A DNA stretch of 39,454 bases from Defluviitalea phaphyphila (GTDB lineage Bacteria > Bacillota > Clostridia > Lachnospirales > Defluviitaleaceae). Both the position numbers and the translations under genes were made by a program. The notes under the pieces are model-generated. The model saw only the letters and a program-made list of their open reading frames with translations. It made no database searches and had not been told where the DNA came from. The stretch spans positions 1-39,454 of the forward strand of contig NZ_JWID01000015.1 of the NCBI RefSeq assembly GCF_001466305.1, given 5' to 3'. Positions 2,699 through 39,289 of this stretch are shown here, one piece after another. Position 1 is the first letter of the stretch. Every line of letters starts with the position of its first letter.

Positions 2699-3674
2699 TT
2701 TTTCTAACCTCCAAATTAAGATCTTCTAACATTTTTTTATCATCACATATTTTATTTCCTGATGTAGTCAAATAGTTACCTGTTATAGTTGCATTAACTC
2801 CTGCTTTAAAACAGTTCTTTCCAAAATTATCTATAAGGTTTCTTCCTCCGCCTAATCTTATAAAAGCTTTAGGATGTATAAATCTAAAAATTGCCATAGT
2901 CTTTAGTATTTCATTTTGAGTTAAAGGCTGTTCATTTTCTAAAGGAGTTCCTTTAACAGGGTTAAGTATATTTATAGGAATTGAATTAACTTTTAATTTT
3001 TTTAATTCAAATGCTAATTTTATTCTATCTTCAAAAGTTTCTCCCACTCCAATAATTCCACCAGAACAAACCTTCATTCCAGCTTTTTTGGCATTGTTTA
3101 TTGTTTCTACCCTTTCTTCATAACTGTGAGTTGTACATATTTTTTTATAATATTCTCTACTAGTTTCTAAATTATGATGATACATTGTTACACCTTTTTC
3201 TTTTAATTTCTTAAGTTGTTCATATTCTAATATCCCCAAAGATGCACATAAATCAAGATTAATTTCTTTATTTAATTCTTCATAAATTTCTAAAATATTT
3301 TCAAATTCCTCTTTTGTCACTGTTTTCCCACTAGTTACTAAAGAAAATCTATTTACTCCTTCTTTCTCATTTTCTTTTGCTAATTTTAAAACTTGTTCTT
3401 TCGATACTAACCCATATACTTCTACATTTGTTTTATAGTGAGAAGATTGTGCACAAAATTTACAGTCCTCAGAACATCTCCCTGATTTTCCATTCATAAT
3501 AGTGCAAAGGTCTACTTCTCTACCTCCAAAATATTCTTTAATTTTATTGGCACTACAACATAATTGATTAATATCTTCATCCTTTTTAACTTTTGATAAC
3601 TTTAAAGCTTCTTCAAAAGTTATAGACTGCCCTTTAAGAACCTTTTCTTCTAATTCTTTAATAAATTCTTTCAT
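2691..3674 (-). CDS. bioB: Biotin synthase (radical SAM)
   Basis: BioB inserts sulfur into dethiobiotin using one [4Fe-4S] cluster for SAM cleavage and a second cluster as sulfur donor. The radical SAM motif CSEDCKFC has C67, C71 and C74. Downstream are [23 protein letters not shown] and the C-terminal [13 protein letters not shown] stretch, all standard BioB blocks. An upstream ATG at 3680 lies only one base after the ribosome binding site AAGGAG. The ATG at 3674, seven bases away, is therefore preferred (327 residues). This start overlaps the bioY stop as ATGA, so bioB translation is likely coupled to the shortened bioY. Confidence 0.95.
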
Positions 3675-3973
3675 AAACATGCTCCTTTTTTCTTATTTTC
3701 ATAAACTATATATCCATTTTTTCTTAACACAGGTAATAATTTCATTGATACATATGAAGTAAATATTGTTACCGGTACTCCTGCAAGTCCAACTGCTACA
3801 TATATTATTTGAGATAATGCTCCTAACTTTGAACCAAGGATAATACCAGCCAAAGCACAAAATAAATATTGAAGAGTAAATGGTACATAAGGGATAGGAA
3901 TTTTAATAAACGCACCAACAGCAGTTAAAGCTGCAAATATTCCTACCAAAATTAAATTTTTAGTATTTTTCAT
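3671..3973 (-). pseudogene. bioY: Biotin transporter substrate-binding subunit BioY, internally deleted
   Basis: BioY is the membrane S-component that binds biotin for an ECF-type importer and normally has about 180-190 residues and six membrane helices. This frame has 100. Residues 1-70 are ordinary BioY N-terminus: a first hydrophobic helix, the IPIPYVPFTLQ loop and a second hydrophobic block ending YVAVGLAGVPV. The sequence then jumps to YVSMKLLPVLRKNGYI, which resembles the extreme C-terminal end of BioY. About 85 central residues, including most later helices and biotin contacts, appear to be lost in frame. The ribosome binding site is AAGAGGTG, and the stop overlaps the bioB start. The product is probably not a working transporter, but the frame may be kept for coupling to bioB. 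Confidence 0.7.
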
Positions 3974-22764: not shown

Positions 22765-23057
22765 CCTCATCCCTGCTAATGCAGGGACGAGGATATTCTC
22801 CGCGCGTTACCACCCTTCTTAACTTTATTTTGCAATAAAGTTCACTTACTAGGTTCTAACAAACCTTTGCCTGTAACGGGGCTTACCGTTTATCTTCTAC
22901 CTACATACTTATATGCATAAGTATGCGTTCAAAGAAACTGCTCTGGAGAGATTCATATTTTGCTATAGGATCGGTTTGCACCAACCACCGATTCTCTGAA
23001 ACCTATATTATGCAAAATATCGGGCTCCTTCATTGCATTTATCTGAAAATTAAATTT
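22765..23057 (-). promoter_or_regulatory. T-box leader of the ilv-leu operon
   Basis: The leader carries a canonical T-box antiterminator core, AGGGTGGTAACGCG (22803-22816 on the minus strand). The terminator follows: CCTCGTCCCTGC / GCAGGGATGAGG (22765-22792) and seven T's. The CGTCCCT half can pair with AGGG...ACG of the core, giving the mutually exclusive antiterminator. Stem I carries the AGAGA and G-G-T-T-G-G-T-G conserved elements (near 22964-22998). The specifier strand reads TGAATCTCTCC, so ATC (Ile, 22950-22952) and CTC (Leu, 22948-22950) overlap. Uncharged branched-chain tRNA would permit read-through into ilvB. Confidence 0.92.
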
Positions 23058-23115: not shown

Positions 23116-23802
23116 TCATCTTTCTAATTCATCTTCTAATTTTTTCAAATCTTTTATAATAATAGTTTTTCCATCTACATCTATATAATTTTTCTTTTTT
23201 AACTGACTCATTATTCTACTCGAAGTTTCCCTTGTTGTTCCTACAATATTCGCTATATCTTGCCTTGTCATTCCTAATTCTAATTCTATACCTTTAGATG
23301 TATTTTTCCCATATTGCTTTGCCAGTTTTATTAGCACTTTGATTGTCCTTATATATGAATCATGTAGAGCCATTTCTTTTACATTTGCTTGGGAATGATA
23401 TAGTCTTCTACTTAATTCCTTTATAATTTGAAGAGATAACTCCCTATTTTCTAATACCATTTTTTCTATATCCTTATTATAAATCATACCAACAATAGCA
23501 TCTTCTATAACTTCTGCGGTAGCAGGATATTCCATATCATTAAACATGGTTACTTCTGCTATAATATCCCCTTTTCCAAATATATTTAAAATAATCTCTC
23601 TTCCATCAAAAGATGTTTTATACATTTTGATTTTCCCTGATTGAATATAATAAAAAGCTTTCCCTTTTTCTCCTTCTAAAAAAATTTTTTCTCCTTTTTT
23701 ATATTCTTTTTTTATTTCTAAATTACTAATTTTTATAAGTTGATCCTCTGATAATCTTGAGAAAATAGGTATATGCCTTAATGCTTCTATATGATTTTTC
23801 AT
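23116..23802 (-). CDS. Crp/Fnr-family regulator, predicted activator of hcp (HcpR-like)
   Basis: A 228-residue Crp/Fnr protein. The cyclic-nucleotide-type beta-barrel spans about 10-120, a long dimer helix about 120-150, and a Crp-type HTH about 165-220. The recognition helix T-R-E-T-x-S-R keeps the R-E-T-x-x-R pattern of E. coli CRP, which reads GTGA. Palindromes GTGA-N6-TCA(C/T) indeed sit in front of this gene and of hcp. The protein has no cysteine at all, so it cannot hold an FNR-type Fe-S cluster. Known HcpR/DNR proteins sense nitric oxide through heme, which is possible here but inferred. The ATG at 23802 follows GAGGAG. A site in its own promoter region suggests autoregulation. Confidence 0.85.
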   Translation of the reverse strand: MKNHIEALRHIPIFSRLSEDQLIKISNLEIKKEYKKGEKIFLEGEKGKAFYYIQSGKIKMYKTSFDGREIILNIFGKGDIIAEVTMFNDMEYPATAEVIEDAIVGMIYNKDIEKMVLENRELSLQIIKELSRRLYHSQANVKEMALHDSYIRTIKVLIKLAKQYGKNTSKGIELELGMTRQDIANIVGTTRETSSRIMSQLKKKNYIDVDGKTIIIKDLKKLEDELER

Positions 23803-23836
23803 TTTATCTCCTCTTTTCATTAAAATATATTAATAT

Positions 23837-23850
23837 GTGATATATATCAT
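23837..23850. promoter_or_regulatory. Crp-like operator, shared by the regulator and the divergent operon
   Basis: GTGATATATATCAT is a near-perfect palindrome (GTGA-N6-TCAT) centred at 23843.5. It is 41.5 bp upstream of the start point (23885) predicted from the plus-strand TATAAT at 23873-23878. That is the standard class II activator position. The same motif lies before hcp (34601-34614). Confidence 0.78.
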
Positions 23851-23872
23851 AGTAGAGTATTCCTATATATTT

Positions 23873-23878
23873 TATAAT
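23873..23878 (+). promoter_or_regulatory. -10 box of the 219-residue protein/DUF1858 operon
   Basis: A consensus TATAAT lies 31 bp before the gene start, with no good -35 box upstream. This is typical of a promoter that depends on an activator bound at -41.5. Confidence 0.7.
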
Positions 23879-23909
23879 GATTGTATCATTAAATGCAAGG
23901 AGGATTTTT

Positions 23910-24569
23910 ATGAGTGCTTTTTTAGGACCTATACATTATTGGTTATATAATAAAATTATTTTATTTGAAGAATTAGAAGATACTTTAGTAAATATTTATT
24001 CAGAAAAATATGGAGATTCTATAAAAGATATTTTTAGACAACATTGTGATAAATATGACTATCCTCTTCCCAAAAATGAACCTTTAGAAAATTTAATTGA
24101 TCAAAGTAATATACACGGTTGGCTTCAAAACAAAATAAGTATTGCCGAAACCCGTCAAGCCTCTTTTTTAAACGAAATATTTAATACTTATAAAGAGGAA
24201 GCTATAAACATAGCTTTGGAAGCACATAAGAATCAAGGAAGTGAAGTAGGCAAAAAAAGTAGAAAAATTGAAAAAGCTTCTTCTGCCCCTGAATTATTTA
24301 AAGCCTTAAATAATTATATTTTAGATGGAATGCCTTGTGACCGAGTAAATAGCATAATTATATCTGAAAACGATATATTAGAATGGGAAACTGTATCTTG
24401 CCTTCATATAGATTATTGGAATTCTGTAGGTGCAGATCCTAATATATTTTATAACTTAAGGAAAACATGGATAGAAGCTTTTATTAAAAATGCTAATCCA
24501 GAATATAAATATGAATTTAAAAACACTTCTAATTCATTATTTAATAAAATTATAAAAGGAGAAAATTAA
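23910..24569 (+). CDS. Uncharacterised 219-residue protein of the predicted Hcp regulon
   Basis: I do not recognise a family for this soluble, mostly helical protein. There is no signal peptide or membrane segment. It opens MSAFLGPIHYWLYNKI and holds three cysteines (C46, C143, C164) and histidines at 9, 45, 69, 106 and 166. Pairs H45-C46 and C164-H166 could bind metal or heme. Tryptophans lie near three of these residues (IHYW, IHGW, HIDYW). An earlier ATG at 23877 overlaps the TATAAT box and is rejected; the ATG at 23910 follows AAGGAGG. It is followed after one base by a DUF1858 gene and is divergent from the Crp-like regulator, whose site lies at -41.5. Context suggests a role in nitric oxide/hydroxylamine or other redox stress. 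Confidence 0.85.
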   Translation: MSAFLGPIHYWLYNKIILFEELEDTLVNIYSEKYGDSIKDIFRQHCDKYDYPLPKNEPLENLIDQSNIHGWLQNKISIAETRQASFLNEIFNTYKEEAINIALEAHKNQGSEVGKKSRKIEKASSAPELFKALNNYILDGMPCDRVNSIIISENDILEWETVSCLHIDYWNSVGADPNIFYNLRKTWIEAFIKNANPEYKYEFKNTSNSLFNKIIKGEN

Positions 24570-24570
24570 T

Positions 24571-24756
24571 ATGCAAATTACAAAGGATATGATTATAGCA
24601 GATATATTAAAAATTAATCCTAATGCAGCTAGAATATTAATGGAAAGTGGTATGGGATGTTTAGGTTGCCCATCTTCACAAGGCGAATCCTTAGAAGATG
24701 CTGCTGCTGTTCATGGAATAGATGTTAATAGTTTATTAGAAAAATTAAATGCTTAA
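24571..24756 (+). CDS. DUF1858 domain protein
   Basis: A 61-residue protein consisting only of the DUF1858 domain. ITKDMIIADILKINPNAARI is followed by the diagnostic MGCLGCPSSQGESLEDAA with C-L-G-C. Related domains are found in hybrid-cluster-associated proteins and at the N-terminus of ScdA/RIC-type Fe-S repair proteins. A role in Fe-S or NO chemistry is plausible but not shown. The start is one base after the upstream stop, behind AAAGGAG, so both genes form one operon. A terminator follows. Confidence 0.9.
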   Translation: MQITKDMIIADILKINPNAARILMESGMGCLGCPSSQGESLEDAAAVHGIDVNSLLEKLNA

Positions 24757-32364: not shown

Positions 32365-32796
32365 TCAATAACAAATTCTTTGATAATATTTTCTCATAAG
32401 ATTATATGCATAGATTTGTTCTTCTTTAATATGTTCAATAAGAGTTTGCCATATCTTATCATCTTCTCCATAATCCTTTAAAGTTTCTAAAAGATTTATC
32501 CAATATTGATCTAAAGCTATAAAATCTCTTAATATAAGACAAATTTCTCTTAATATATTCCCTTGCATATAGGGCATACTATATTCTATTCTTCTTTGAA
32601 GATGCCTTGCTCTTTTTTGTATATCCTCAAATTTAGAAGTATAACTTAATACTTCCTTTGTTAATTTTTTAGGTAAATTTTTATCAGTTAATTGGGCTAC
32701 TGTATCAATAACTATAGGATGTTCTTTTGAAATTTCAGTCCAGAATATTATTTGATCTAATATATCTTTTATAAAATATTTATTTATCCCATTCAT
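32365..32796 (-). CDS. Small all-helical protein, possibly ferritin-like (DUF2935-like)
   Basis: The 143-residue soluble protein appears to be a four-helix bundle. Candidate metal residues occur in a repeated pattern: IIFWTEISKEHPIVI (E-x-x-x-E-H), SKFEDIQKRA, then DFIALDQYW and LIEHIKEEQIYAY (E-H...E). The FW-x-x-I-x-x-E-H opening resembles half of a DUF2935 protein, but I am not certain of the family. It lies 76 bp after hcp on the same strand with no convincing terminator between. Its ribosome binding site GGAGGG is buried in a hairpin (32802-32840). It could be read with hcp and serve in NO or oxygen defence, or iron handling. Confidence 0.75.
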   Translation of the reverse strand: MNGINKYFIKDILDQIIFWTEISKEHPIVIDTVAQLTDKNLPKKLTKEVLSYTSKFEDIQKRARHLQRRIEYSMPYMQGNILREICLILRDFIALDQYWINLLETLKDYGEDDKIWQTLIEHIKEEQIYAYNLMRKYYQRICY

Positions 32797-32872: not shown

Positions 32873-34504
32873 TTATGCCATAAACATTTTTAAATCGTCT
32901 TCTACATTTGTAATTCCACCAATTCCAAAGTTTTCTACTAATACTTTAGCAACATTTGGTGAAAGGAATGCTGGCAATGTTGGCCCTAAATGAATATTTT
33001 TAACTCCAAGATATAAAAGGGCAAGTAGTACAATAACAGCTTTTTGTTCATACCAAGCAATATTATATGATATAGGAAGTTCATTAATATCATTTAATTC
33101 AAATACTTCTTTTAATTTAAGAGCAATAACTGCAAGTGAATAGGAATCATTACATTGTCCGGCATCTAATACTCTTGGAATTCCTCCTATATCTCCTAAA
33201 TCTAATTTATTATATTTATATTTTGCACAACCTGCTGTTAAAATAACAGTGTCTTTTGGAAGTGCTTTTGCAAAATCTGTATAATAATTTCTGCTTTTCA
33301 TTCTTCCATCACAACCAGCCATTACAAAGAAACGTTTAATAGCCCCTGATTTTACTGCATCTACTACTTTATCTGCTAAAGATAAAACTGTATTATGAGC
33401 AAATCCTCCTATAATTTCTCCTCTTTCTATTTCTGTTGGAGGAGCACATTTTTTAGCATGTTCAATAATCTCTGAGAAATCTTTTTTACCATTTTCCCCA
33501 TCAGGAATATGTTTTACACCTTCAAATCCTACTGGACCTGTTGTATATACCCTATCTTTATAAGAATCTTTTGGTGGAACTAAACAATTTGTAGTCATTA
33601 AAATAGGTCCATTAAATTTTTCAAATTCTTCATTTTGCTTCCACCATGCATTTCCATAGTTTCCTACAAAATGGTCATACTTTTTAAATGCTGGATAATA
33701 ATTAGCTGGAAGCATTTCACTATGAGTATATACATCTACTCCTGTTCCTTCTGTTTGTTTTAAAAGTTCTTCCATATCTTTTAAATCATGTCCACTAATT
33801 AAAATAGCAGGATTATTTCTAACACCTATATTTACTTTTGTAATTTCAGGGTGCCCATAGGTTGATGTATTAGCTTTATCAAGAAGTGCCATTACATCTA
33901 CTCCATATTTCCCTGTTTCCATAGTAAGATTAATTAAATCATCTACAGATAAACTATCATCTAATGTAGCAGCTAATGCTCTTTGAAGAAATGCATGAAT
34001 TTCATTATTTTCATATCCAAGATTTATAGCATGTTTTCCATAAGCAGCCATTCCTTTTAATCCATAAGTAATTAATTCTCTTAATGAACGTATATCTTCA
34101 TTTTCTGTAGTTAATATACCTACAGTTTCAGCTTTTTTATCATATTCTTCTTCACTTATATTGAAATTTGCTGCATCATGGTTAATATTAGTATTTCCAC
34201 CTGCTTTAGCTACTTCAGCTTTAACTTCTTCACGTACTTCTAAAGCTTTTGTAATTCTCTTTATAAAATCATTTCTATCAAAATTAGCATTAGTAATCGT
34301 TGCAAATAAATTTTCCATGATAAATCTATTTACTTCTTTATTTTCTACCCCTACTTTTCTACCTTCTGTTGTATACATTGAAATTCCTTTAAGGGTATAA
34401 ATTAATAAATCTTGAAGATTGGATACATCACCTGTTTTTCCACATACCCCTCTTAAAGTACATCCTGTACCTTTAGCTGTTTCTTGACATTGATAACAAA
34501 ACAT
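32873..34504 (-). CDS. hcp: Hydroxylamine reductase (hybrid cluster protein)
   Basis: A 543-residue class I Hcp, cytoplasmic. It reduces hydroxylamine and in other bacteria acts on nitric oxide and in protein S-nitrosation. The N-terminal [4Fe-4S] site has C3, C6, C15 and C21 ([15 protein letters not shown]...C). Hybrid-cluster ligands lie in [45 protein letters not shown] and [11 protein letters not shown]. An upstream ATG at 34534 has no ribosome binding site. The ATG at 34504 follows GAGGAGG. The GTGA-N6-TCAC palindrome at -41.5 indicates activation by the Crp-like regulator at 23116. Confidence 0.96.
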
Positions 34505-34572: not shown

Positions 34573-34614
34573 ATAATATAGGAGGTATAAAGATAAATCA
34601 GTGATATAAATCAC
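34573..34614 (-). promoter_or_regulatory. hcp promoter with Crp-like operator at -41.5
   Basis: A perfect palindrome GTGATATAAATCAC (34601-34614, centre 34607.5) lies upstream of the minus-strand -10 box TATTAT (34573-34578). The predicted start is 34566, so the site centre is at -41.5. There is no consensus -35 box, as expected for class II activation. It matches the site at 23837-23850 in all but two core positions. Confidence 0.8.
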
Positions 34615-37599: not shown

Positions 37600-38025
37600 A
37601 AAAAGTCCTATCATCTCTAAATATTAGAGACGAAAGGACTCCTTCCGCGGTACCACTCTCATTCATTCATAAAGAATGCAACTTTAAAGATACCATCAAG
37701 TAAATATTATTTCCCATACCAAACAATCTATTTTATATTAATAAATTTATAAAATAAAAAAAACTTTCATCCCAAAAGAGACGAAAGAATCGTTATACCA
37801 CTCTTTATAAAAATAAAATTGGATACGAGCTATGGAAATAAATACTTACTTGCCGATATCCTGTCAAAATAACGGTTGACCTCCGTCTCCTCCTACTTAA
37901 ATTTCAGGGAGCAACTCCAAGGCGAGTTCAGTTTTTTTCCGATACTGTTTTGCACCAACCAACAGCTCTCTATAATCTTCCAAAAACCTACTACTCCTCT
38001 TCATCGTCTTTAATCAATTTTATTG
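37600..38025 (-). promoter_or_regulatory. leuA leader: T-box leader of leuA with two tandem antiterminator/terminator modules
   Basis: Stem I carries AGAGA and GGTTGGTGC elements (about 37952-37971) and a specifier strand TGAACTCGCC with CTC (Leu) at 37924-37926. Module 1 is AGAGTGGTATAACG (37791-37804), then terminator CTTTCGTCTC / GGGATGAAAG (37764-37787) with eight T's. Module 2 is AGAGTGGTACCGCG (37646-37659), then a 16-bp terminator (37604-37640) with T's. In both, the usual AGGG is AGAG and the pairing strand is changed from CGTCCCT to CGTCTC, so pairing is kept. Only about 100 nt lie between the modules, too short for a second Stem I. Confidence 0.85.
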
Positions 38026-38700: not shown

Positions 38701-38781
38701 TGCGGATGAAGGGAGTCGAACCCCCACGCCAAAGGCGCTAGATCCTAAGTCTAGTGCGTCTGCCAATTCCGCCACATCCGC
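38701..38781 (-). tRNA. tRNA-Leu (anticodon TAG)
   Basis: Acceptor GCGGATG/CATCCGC with discriminator A. Anticodon loop CTTAGGA between CTAGA arms. The long type II variable arm (CGCC TTT GGCG) is as expected for tRNA-Leu. CCA is not encoded. Last gene of the seven-tRNA transcript. Confidence 0.96.
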
Positions 38782-38804
38782 ATATAATTTAAAATTAAAA
38801 AACA

Positions 38805-38877
38805 TGAGCTACCCGGGACTCGAACCCGGGACACCTGGATTAAAAGTCCAGTGCTCTACCACCTGAGCTAGTAGCCC
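38805..38877 (-). tRNA. tRNA-Lys (anticodon TTT)
   Basis: Acceptor GGGCTAC/GTAGCTC with one G-U pair, discriminator A. Anticodon loop CTTTTAA between CTGGA and TCCAG. CCA not encoded. Confidence 0.96.
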
Positions 38878-38884
38878 ATAAAAA

Positions 38885-38956
38885 CTGGGTAGGAAGGATT
38901 CGAACCTTCGCATGCAGGAGTCAAAGTCCTGTGCCTTACCGCTTGGCGACTACCCA
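38885..38956 (-). tRNA. tRNA-Gln (anticodon TTG)
   Basis: Acceptor TGGGTAG/CTACCCA with discriminator G, normal for tRNA-Gln. Anticodon loop CTTTGAC between CAGGA and TCCTG. CCA not encoded. Confidence 0.96.
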
Positions 38957-38967
38957 TTACTTACAAG

Positions 38968-39042
38968 GGTGAATGGTGGGAGTCGAACCCACGACCTCCA
39001 GAGCCACAATCTGGCGCTCTAACCAACTGAGCTACACCCACC
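38968..39042 (-). tRNA. tRNA-His (anticodon GTG)
   Basis: Acceptor GTGGGTG/CATTCAC with two G-U pairs. The extra G at position -1 faces C73, the histidine identity feature. Anticodon loop TTGTGGC between CCAGA and TCTGG. CCA not encoded. Confidence 0.95.
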
Positions 39043-39059
39043 ATAATCACCAAAACTAA

Positions 39060-39133
39060 CGTGCCTGCAGGGATTCGAACCCCGGACACGTGGCTTAGAA
39101 GGCCACTGCTCTATCCAGCTGAGCTACAGGCAC
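39060..39133 (-). tRNA. tRNA-Arg (anticodon TCT)
   Basis: Acceptor GTGCCTG/CAGGCAC, discriminator G. Anticodon loop CTTCTAA between GTGGC and GCCAC, reading AGA/AGG codons. CCA not encoded. Confidence 0.96.
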
Positions 39134-39138
39134 CTATA

Positions 39139-39209
39139 AGCGGGTGATGGGAATCGAACCCACGTATCCAGCTTGGAAGGCTGGTGTTCTACCATTGAAC
39201 TACACCCGC
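39139..39209 (-). tRNA. tRNA-Gly (anticodon TCC)
   Basis: Acceptor GCGGGTG/CACCCGC, discriminator T. Anticodon loop CTTCCAA between CCAGC and GCTGG. CCA not encoded. Confidence 0.96.
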
Positions 39210-39214
39210 AAACA

Positions 39215-39289
39215 TCGGGGTGACAGGATTCGAACCTGCGACCTCTTGATCCCAAATCAAGCGCTCTAGCCAAGCTGAGCCACACCCCG
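39215..39289 (-). tRNA. tRNA-Pro (anticodon TGG)
   Basis: Acceptor CGGGGTG/CACCCCG, discriminator A. Anticodon loop TTTGGGA between CTTGA and TCAAG. First gene of the tRNA transcript. CCA not encoded. Confidence 0.96.

Follow-up and report, generated by a model that had tools for sequence, protein, structure and literature searches.

The closest described counterparts of the system considered here are the HcpR regulons of anaerobic bacteria, in which Crp/Fnr-family regulators (HcpR1 and HcpR2) act through palindromes upstream of hcp, the gene for the hybrid cluster protein, and of other genes connected with nitrogen oxides (PMC1274295, PMC12915319). In C. difficile, nitric oxide (NO) induces hcp (about 206-fold) and frdX through HcpR (PMC12915319, 2026). 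Proteins with a DUF1858 domain have been reported from an NnrR-controlled gene set and from a group of nitrate-respiration genes (PMC6710368, PMC6282519). The window analyzed here, a stretch of 39,454 nucleotides from Defluviitalea phaphyphila, is one contig (C7) out of the 76 that make up a 2.54-Mb genome and contains hcp, a gene for a Crp/Fnr-family regulator (P0001), a gene for an uncharacterized 219-residue protein (X219, or P0002) and a DUF1858 gene (P0004). Our analysis suggests, with a probability of about 0.72, that X219 is a core and so far unnamed member of the NO and nitrosative-stress regulon of anaerobic Clostridia that works beside Hcp, probably via a metal or cofactor. X219 is widespread and, in many Clostridia, seemingly controlled together with Hcp by two types of regulator in one promoter geometry. 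This makes it a direct candidate, open to test, for a missing part of the protection that Hcp and its partners give strict anaerobes against NO.

X219 is encoded at 23910..24569 on the plus strand and carries the conserved motifs FLGPIHxWLYNKI, NIHGWLQ, AExR, GMPCD and CLH, with a predicted His/Cys site. It is followed at 24571..24756 (+) by the gene for P0004, a 61-residue protein that scores above the cut-offs of both TIGR03980 (99.4 bits; cut-off 44.95) and Pfam DUF1858 (78.9 bits; cut-off 32.2). The link between DUF1858 and hcp is already known since NCBIfam names TIGR03980 the "hybrid cluster protein-associated redox disulfide" family, and the only novelty of P0004 is its pairing with X219; our literature search found no paper linking DUF1858 with hcp. 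The hcp gene, of the hydroxylamine reductase family, lies at 32873..34504 on the minus strand (34504-32882 in the genome search) and scored above cut-off with NF003658 (909.3 bits) and TIGR01703 (814.4 bits). Directly downstream of hcp and on the same strand is an open reading frame (ORF) of 143 residues (32365-32796, -).

Predicted regulator sites of the form GTGA-N6-TCAY were found upstream of X219 (GTGATATATATCAT; 23837..23850, +) and upstream of hcp (GTGATTTATATCAC; 34601..34614, -). A -10 box begins 22 nucleotides past each site, TATAAT at 23873..23878 (+) for X219 and TATTAT at 34573..34578 (-) for hcp, so that, with the box taken as positions -12 to -7, the center of each site falls at -41.5, where Crp binds in class II promoters. 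An earlier sequence-only reading of the window had proposed these palindromes, their spacing and a regulon joining hcp, X219 and the DUF1858 gene, and the sequence bears out the positions of both sites. Comparison with the nearest relatives, eight genomes of the host family including that of the window (G000), showed that the sites are conserved, as that reading had asked to be checked. GTGA-N6-TCAT followed after exactly 22 nucleotides by TATAAT precedes X219 in all six genomes that have the gene, and a site with a box at offset 22 precedes hcp in all eight, including G005 and G006, both of which are without X219. A relaxed site-plus-box pattern had 69 matches across the eight genomes vs. 23 for the reversed pattern. 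The bare 14-mer taken alone is weak evidence (three strand-matches in the window vs. 0.89 expected; seven of 100 shuffles reached three). The genome-wide scan for it, one of the checks that the sequence-only reading had put forward, gave no enrichment (32 strand-matches vs. 87 for the reversed pattern). It is conservation together with fixed geometry that raises the sites above chance.

X219 relatives beyond the host family were collected by a contig scan of genomes, which found at least 559, the best 80 of which were kept as named loci. Together with 35 loci from the order search these gave 115 loci, or 110 once near-identical copies of X219 (L058, L076, L092, L093, and L157) were removed. 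Since the named set of 80 consists of the closest X219 relatives, an even draw was also taken at class level; leaving out three genomes already sampled, it holds 44 loci from 41 genomes, some of which repeat named loci. Upstream motifs were counted for 107 X219 genes with at least 150 nucleotides upstream of motif-based starts (three loci were omitted) and, as controls, for 565 upstreams of genes at the same loci that lie over 3.5 kb from X219.

Two types of site precede X219 across the Clostridia. The HcpR2 motif itself, GTAAC-N4-GTTAC (Rodionov, 2005; PMC1274295), was present with at most one mismatch in 46 of the 107 upstreams (38 exact, eight with one mismatch) and in 5/565 controls. A GTGA-type site, defined as an exact GTGA-N6-TCAY or RTGA-N6-TCAC, was present in 20/107 and in 13/565 controls, and no upstream among the 107 had both. 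The counts were similar when starts were set at the longest ORF (47 HcpR2-type and 21 GTGA-type among the 110 loci). When boxes were counted without any preference for offset 22, a TATAAT-like box was found at that offset in 40/46 GTAAC-type and 19/20 GTGA-type promoters, and the runner-up, offset 17, in 17 and 5, respectively. Thirteen loci of the class-level draw had a site (eight exact HcpR2 motifs and five GTGA-type). The pattern suggests that one target gene was kept under NO-type control while regulator and motif changed. X219 is not named in the available part of PMC1274295, nor is it among the direct HcpR targets of C. difficile (frdX and hcp) given in the available part of PMC12915319. 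Classical FNR sites (TTGA-N6-TCAA) were also sought before X219 and were found at none of the 110 loci.

The helices of the neighboring regulators follow the same division. A search with P0001 detected 32 regulators over the 110 loci, 16 of them where a site directly precedes X219. All ten regulators at GTGA-type loci have an R-E-T helix, and the six at GTAAC-type loci read R-P-S (three), R-T-S (two), and R-E-T (one). These helix types agree with the published rule by which residues 180 and 181 determine the bases contacted (Rodionov, 2005; PMC1274295). In the host family, an R-E-T helix occurs together with GTGA-N6-TCAY before hcp in all eight genomes.

P0001 is encoded at 23116..23802 on the minus strand; its ORF was listed from 23820, and the second ATG, at 23802, is the likelier start since it is preceded by GAGGAG. 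The protein matches Pfam cNMP_binding, HTH_Crp_2 and Crp, and its recognition helix reads R-E-T-S-S-R, in keeping with the R-E-T-x-x-R helix noticed in the sequence-only reading. Orthologs with an R-E-T helix were found in 8/8 family genomes, with in-frame stops in the G007 and G006 matches. In G007, the ortholog with in-frame stops (contig 2, 43364-44055) adjoins X219, and the sites of X219 and hcp are kept. P0001 has no cysteine anywhere in its sequence and no FNR cysteine cluster motif, which excludes an FNR-type cluster. NO sensing by P0001 through haem could be suggested only by analogy with Desulfovibrio HcpR1, a haem-binding protein (PMC5701242). In a tree of 41 regulators, P0001 falls in a 22-row clade (support 98/100) that holds R-E-T and T-P-E proteins and none of the R-P-S or R-T-S regulators from HcpR2-type loci. 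Neither the R-P helix nor the GTAAC-N4-GTTAC site of the HcpR2 branch was found for P0001, and by sequence P0001 is outside the HcpR2-like branch of this tree, which was built without named HcpR1, HcpR2, or Crp2 references. The sequence-only reading was right in substance about the regulon; its label "HcpR-type" fits the apparent role of P0001 but not its descent.

The genes around X219 point to the same setting. Genes within 2.5 kb of X219 at the 110 loci (523 kb in total) were compared with those at 4–7.5 kb (664 kb in total). Hemerythrin-like genes, the commonest neighbors, were found 54 times near X219 and never far from it; the corresponding counts were 48 vs. 1 for DUF1858 genes, 27 vs. 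2 for regulators found with P0001, 19 vs. 5 for hcp genes and 18 vs. 0 for siroheme-reductase-like (NIR_SIR) genes. The NIR_SIR neighbors, present at 17/110 loci, are stand-alone proteins that match the C-terminal part of NirB models (e.g., L097 1745-2425, about 226 residues). At least one hemerythrin-like, DUF1858, hcp, or siroheme-reductase-like gene was within 2.5 kb at 88/110 loci. In the class-level draw a partner was within this distance at 27 loci, and a partner or a site was present at 35/44. In the order sample, hcp (TIGR01703 above cut-off) was detected in 33 of the 34 genomes with X219 and in 52 of the 162 others (Fisher p about 3e-13, uncorrected for kinship). Co-occurrence of X219 with DUF1858, hcp and the regulator, which the sequence-only reading had put forward as a check, is thus borne out. 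A Paraclostridium plasmid has the order hcp, X219, hemerythrin, nifU, DUF1858, hcp, and in Peptoclostridium an MrpORP-annotated gene lies beside DUF1858-X219-hemerythrin.

Several loci have other arrangements of these genes. Short Hcp-like proteins of about 196 residues, covering profile positions 31-198, are encoded beside DUF1858 and X219 (L076 9448-10038, -; L081 7456-8046, +). At seven loci (L077, L078, L085, L088, L094, L133, and L134) the DUF1858 and Hcp matches share one open frame adjoining X219, suggesting a DUF1858-Hcp fusion. A plasmid of Cetobacterium (Fusobacteriota) carries a gene for a 229-residue hypothetical protein (L274 3125-3814) followed by DUF1858 and X219, showing that the DUF1858-X219 pair exists outside the Clostridia. 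A Streptomyces plasmid also matches X219.

Other genes behind matching sites were surveyed in 18 further site regions from the family match list and three hcp regions. The window's genome has ten site-plus-box matches vs. four for the reversed pattern. Five are clear and precede X219; hcp; a formate/nitrite transporter gene with asrABC; a hemerythrin-like gene followed by a rubrerythrin gene; and a RIC-type gene (TIGR03652, 138.6 bits, under the cut-off of 204.7; ScdA_N, 81.9 bits, over the Pfam cut-off). Two more precede genes that we take to be glmM and rnfC and look like chance matches; the survey covered these seven, the other three matches lying on C1 (two) and C76 (one). In the relatives, sites precede a flavodiiron gene that matches models of anaerobic NO reductase flavorubredoxin below their cut-offs, a DUF2249 gene and what is presumably a pyruvate formate-lyase gene. 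The hemerythrin-like gene behind the conserved site was inspected in four family genomes; each of the four proteins matches all 56 hemerythrin-like X219 neighbors, and the best identity to neighbors elsewhere, 57–60%, places it in the same family as the neighbor of X219 elsewhere. X219 itself matches neither hemerythrin nor RIC models (P0002 compared with Pfam and NCBIfam, 20 members with Pfam), which sets it apart from the RIC/YtfE/ScdA and hemerythrin-like di-iron proteins whose site type it shares in the host family. The set of genes behind the sites (hemerythrin-like, RIC/ScdA-type, flavodiiron NO-reductase-like, DUF2249 and nitrite/formate transporter) argues for the role against NO or related nitrogen oxides that the sequence-only reading had proposed. 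One odd site of the family lies inside an ORF in G003 (L216) and another before a 151-residue ORF in G001 (L218); site region L223 of G004 ends before any downstream gene.

X219, the new element here, forms a family without a name and seems to be part of HcpR-type regulons in many Clostridia. Nothing in Pfam or NCBIfam matches it above cut-off, and the PDB contains no relative; single family members gave weak Pfam matches (best E 0.0063), which were mutually inconsistent and were discarded. PADLOC, consulted for a defense-system reading, gave a single weak match of residues 11-119 to PDC-S20 (E 0.0019). Homologs were present in 6/8 family genomes, 34/196 order genomes and 44/391 class genomes, and the nearest named relatives are in two metagenome-assembled genomes of Candidatus Epulonipiscium (71% identity). 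Clostridium beijerinckii and Ruminiclostridium papyrosolvens are among the species in which the contig scan detected X219. Six plasmid records encode the protein, labeled "hypothetical protein" in five and with no gene listed in the sixth. No paper describing X219 was found by title or abstract, RegPrecise and Table S1 of PMC1274295, where homologs may be listed, lying outside this search.

Conserved residues were examined in an alignment of 155 rows (the 110 loci, the 44 of the class-level draw and P0002, some repeated). Positions 9, 69, 80, 143, and 166 read HHECH (His9, His69, Glu80, Cys143, His166) in 142 rows. The other 13 comprise four incomplete rows, two that are without His166 alone and seven complete rows without both His69 and Cys143; these seven (L083, L304, and five of family f81) represent about three events, and no complete row is missing just one of the pair. 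Residue 164 is Cys in 121 rows and Asp in 25. Co-conservation of these His, Glu, and Cys residues is taken as a sign of, and suggests, one metal or cofactor site, and X219 probably carries such a ligand. The seven divergent relatives without His69 and Cys143 are L304, L083, L313, L316, L317, L318, and L319, of which L316, L318, and L319 adjoin hcp. A divergent and a canonical X219 share a genome in three cases (L304 with L293, L317 with L303, and L083 with L082), and the divergent proteins could be partner subunits.

AlphaFold2 models of X219 from the window (predicted local distance difference test score, pLDDT, 93.3; predicted template modeling score, pTM, 0.90) and of a Ruminiclostridium relative (pLDDT 93.3) were compared with known structures. 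For each model, 49 of 50 VIA rows were H-NOX, TRAPP, or V4R proteins, with a best Z of 8.2, a value that VIA itself cautions is common, and the top Foldseek matches of both were H-NOX proteins (best E 0.0028 and 0.014). The predicted fold thus weakly resembles the H-NOX (HNOB), V4R and TRAPP/Bet3 proteins, with alignments over much of the chain of both models, although Z values of about 8 are middling and no sequence similarity was found. The haem motif of H-NOX consists of a proximal histidine and YxSxR, and the conserved His/Cys set of X219 differs from it; YxSxR is not among the conserved X219 columns of the sequence alignment, no residue-by-residue structural alignment having been made. 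The HNOB profile had no match in X219, in 20 members of its family or in the window's genome, and assignment to H-NOX by sequence was rejected after a profile-profile comparison with 22 clostridial H-NOX domains (loci L249, L252, and L273 were left out) gave a probability of 4.6%. The H-NOX, V4R, and TRAPP folds have been reported to be structurally related, with V4R and TRAPP members able to bind Zn and hydrophobic ligands (PMC10933270).

The mechanism that we propose begins with a Crp/Fnr-family activator, which would bind the 14-bp palindrome with its center at -41.5 and recruit RNA polymerase, as at class II Crp promoters, to the X219-DUF1858 promoter and to hcp. In the window's genome the likely reader of GTGA-N6-TCAY would be P0001; in many other Clostridia an HcpR2-type protein would read GTAAC-N4-GTTAC at the same position. 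We infer that NO is the signal and that X219, Hcp, the hemerythrin-like di-iron protein and the DUF1858 protein may together remove NO or nitrogen oxides, or else repair the iron centers that these damage. For this, X219 would probably rely on a metal or cofactor that His9, His69, Cys143, and His166 bind within a fold resembling that of the H-NOX, V4R, and TRAPP proteins. More tentatively, and with well under even odds, X219 might found a family of non-haem metalloproteins on this fold, induced by HcpR-type activators, in which a His3-Cys site replaces haem and gives strict anaerobes a direct means of handling NO or its products; X219 would then rank as a main partner to Hcp and a dedicated di-iron protein. 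X219 may also link the sensors of the H-NOX fold to metal chemistry.

Several results weigh against a role of X219 in the Hcp regulon as proposed. In one genus (G005 and G006) the P0001 ortholog and the hcp site are present and X219 is missing. Among all X219 genes compared, 41/107 upstreams have neither type of site, and 22/110 loci have no partner within 2.5 kb. The other 16 of the 32 regulators lie where no site directly precedes X219 and are uninformative on the match of helix and motif, and L160 combines a GTAAC-type site with an R-E-T regulator. One X219 genome (G086) has no hcp, and the 52/162 genomes that have hcp without X219 indicate that X219 is not needed for Hcp. In the class-level draw, 9/44 loci have neither partner nor site, and the P0001 query found no regulator near X219 and three far from it. 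The five divergent rows of family f81 are without the X219 motifs, yet three of them adjoin hcp. The fold matches are weak, with low template modeling scores and with ribosome recycling factors and designed proteins in the Foldseek lists.

Alternative explanations concern the sites, their reader and the signal. The missing genome-wide enrichment is what would be expected if the palindromes had arisen by chance or served Crp regulation in general without being tied to these genes in particular, but conservation in the family, the fixed geometry with its -10 offsets, the low rates in controls and the fact that the same genes independently use the HcpR2 motif rule chance out and leave this reading extremely improbable. 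A reader other than P0001 is available in the window's genome, which has an R-T-S regulator and also an R-E-T paralog 37% identical to P0001 (G000 C34) whose helix, L-T-R-E-T-V-S-R, has the same key residues and whose gene adjoins the RIC gene and its site. This second R-E-T regulator could read some sites; those of RIC and of some flavodiiron genes differ in their core (ATGA-N6-TCACAGTTTT) and may be among its targets. That it, rather than P0001, reads the X219 and hcp sites is improbable, as the P0001 gene is oriented divergently to X219 and adjoins the site, and G005 and G006 keep the hcp site although the second regulator found there reads T-P-E-[TS]-I-S-R and, among the regulators found in these two genomes, R-E-T occurs only in the P0001 ortholog, which points to P0001 as the reader. 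A response to sulfite or general redox stress instead of NO would account for the transporter and asrABC genes behind a site, the NIR_SIR neighbors and the rubrerythrin gene after the hemerythrin-like gene. Siroheme reductases may act on nitrite too, and hcp, RIC-type and flavodiiron NO-reductase-like genes also lie behind matching sites. The HcpR-dependent, roughly 206-fold rise of C. difficile hcp with an NO donor likewise favors NO (PMC12915319), and we regard sulfite or redox stress as quite unlikely to be the signal.

For X219 itself, two other functions compete with a part in NO removal or repair. The H-NOX matches of both models, together with a promoter type common to NO-defense genes, would suit an H-NOX-type sensor of NO or another ligand, with haem or otherwise, that modulates Hcp or the regulator and is neither enzyme nor repair factor. 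We consider this unlikely, given the negative HNOB and profile-profile results, the YxSxR signature missing from the conserved residues and the stand-alone architecture of X219, which has no fused output domain. Somewhat less doubtful, though still a minority view, is that X219 serves Hcp, DUF1858 and hemerythrin-like partners as a helper in maturation or electron transfer (cluster assembly or repair) and that its His/Cys site is only structural, for example for zinc. The NifU-annotated gene with X219, DUF1858, and two hcp genes on the Paraclostridium plasmid and the MrpORP-annotated gene in Peptoclostridium fit such a helper, as do the Zn sites that V4R and TRAPP proteins have in similar regions (PMC10933270). 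However, ten annotated neighbor clusters contained no cluster-assembly gene, and the conserved residues are spread along the entire chain, with three histidines and a glutamate among them, probably more than a typical structural zinc site would have. A role of X219 beside Hcp in removal of nitrogen oxides or in repair, with a metal or cofactor, is preferred.

The window contains other features apart from this regulon. A BioY-like ORF of 100 residues (3671-3973, -) lies beside biotin genes and looks to us shorter than a normal BioY. T-box leaders were found at 22780-23042 (-) and 37774-38013 (-), presumably preceding acetolactate-synthase-like and isopropylmalate/citramalate-synthase-like genes, respectively, and a cluster of seven tRNA genes lies at 38701-39289 (-).

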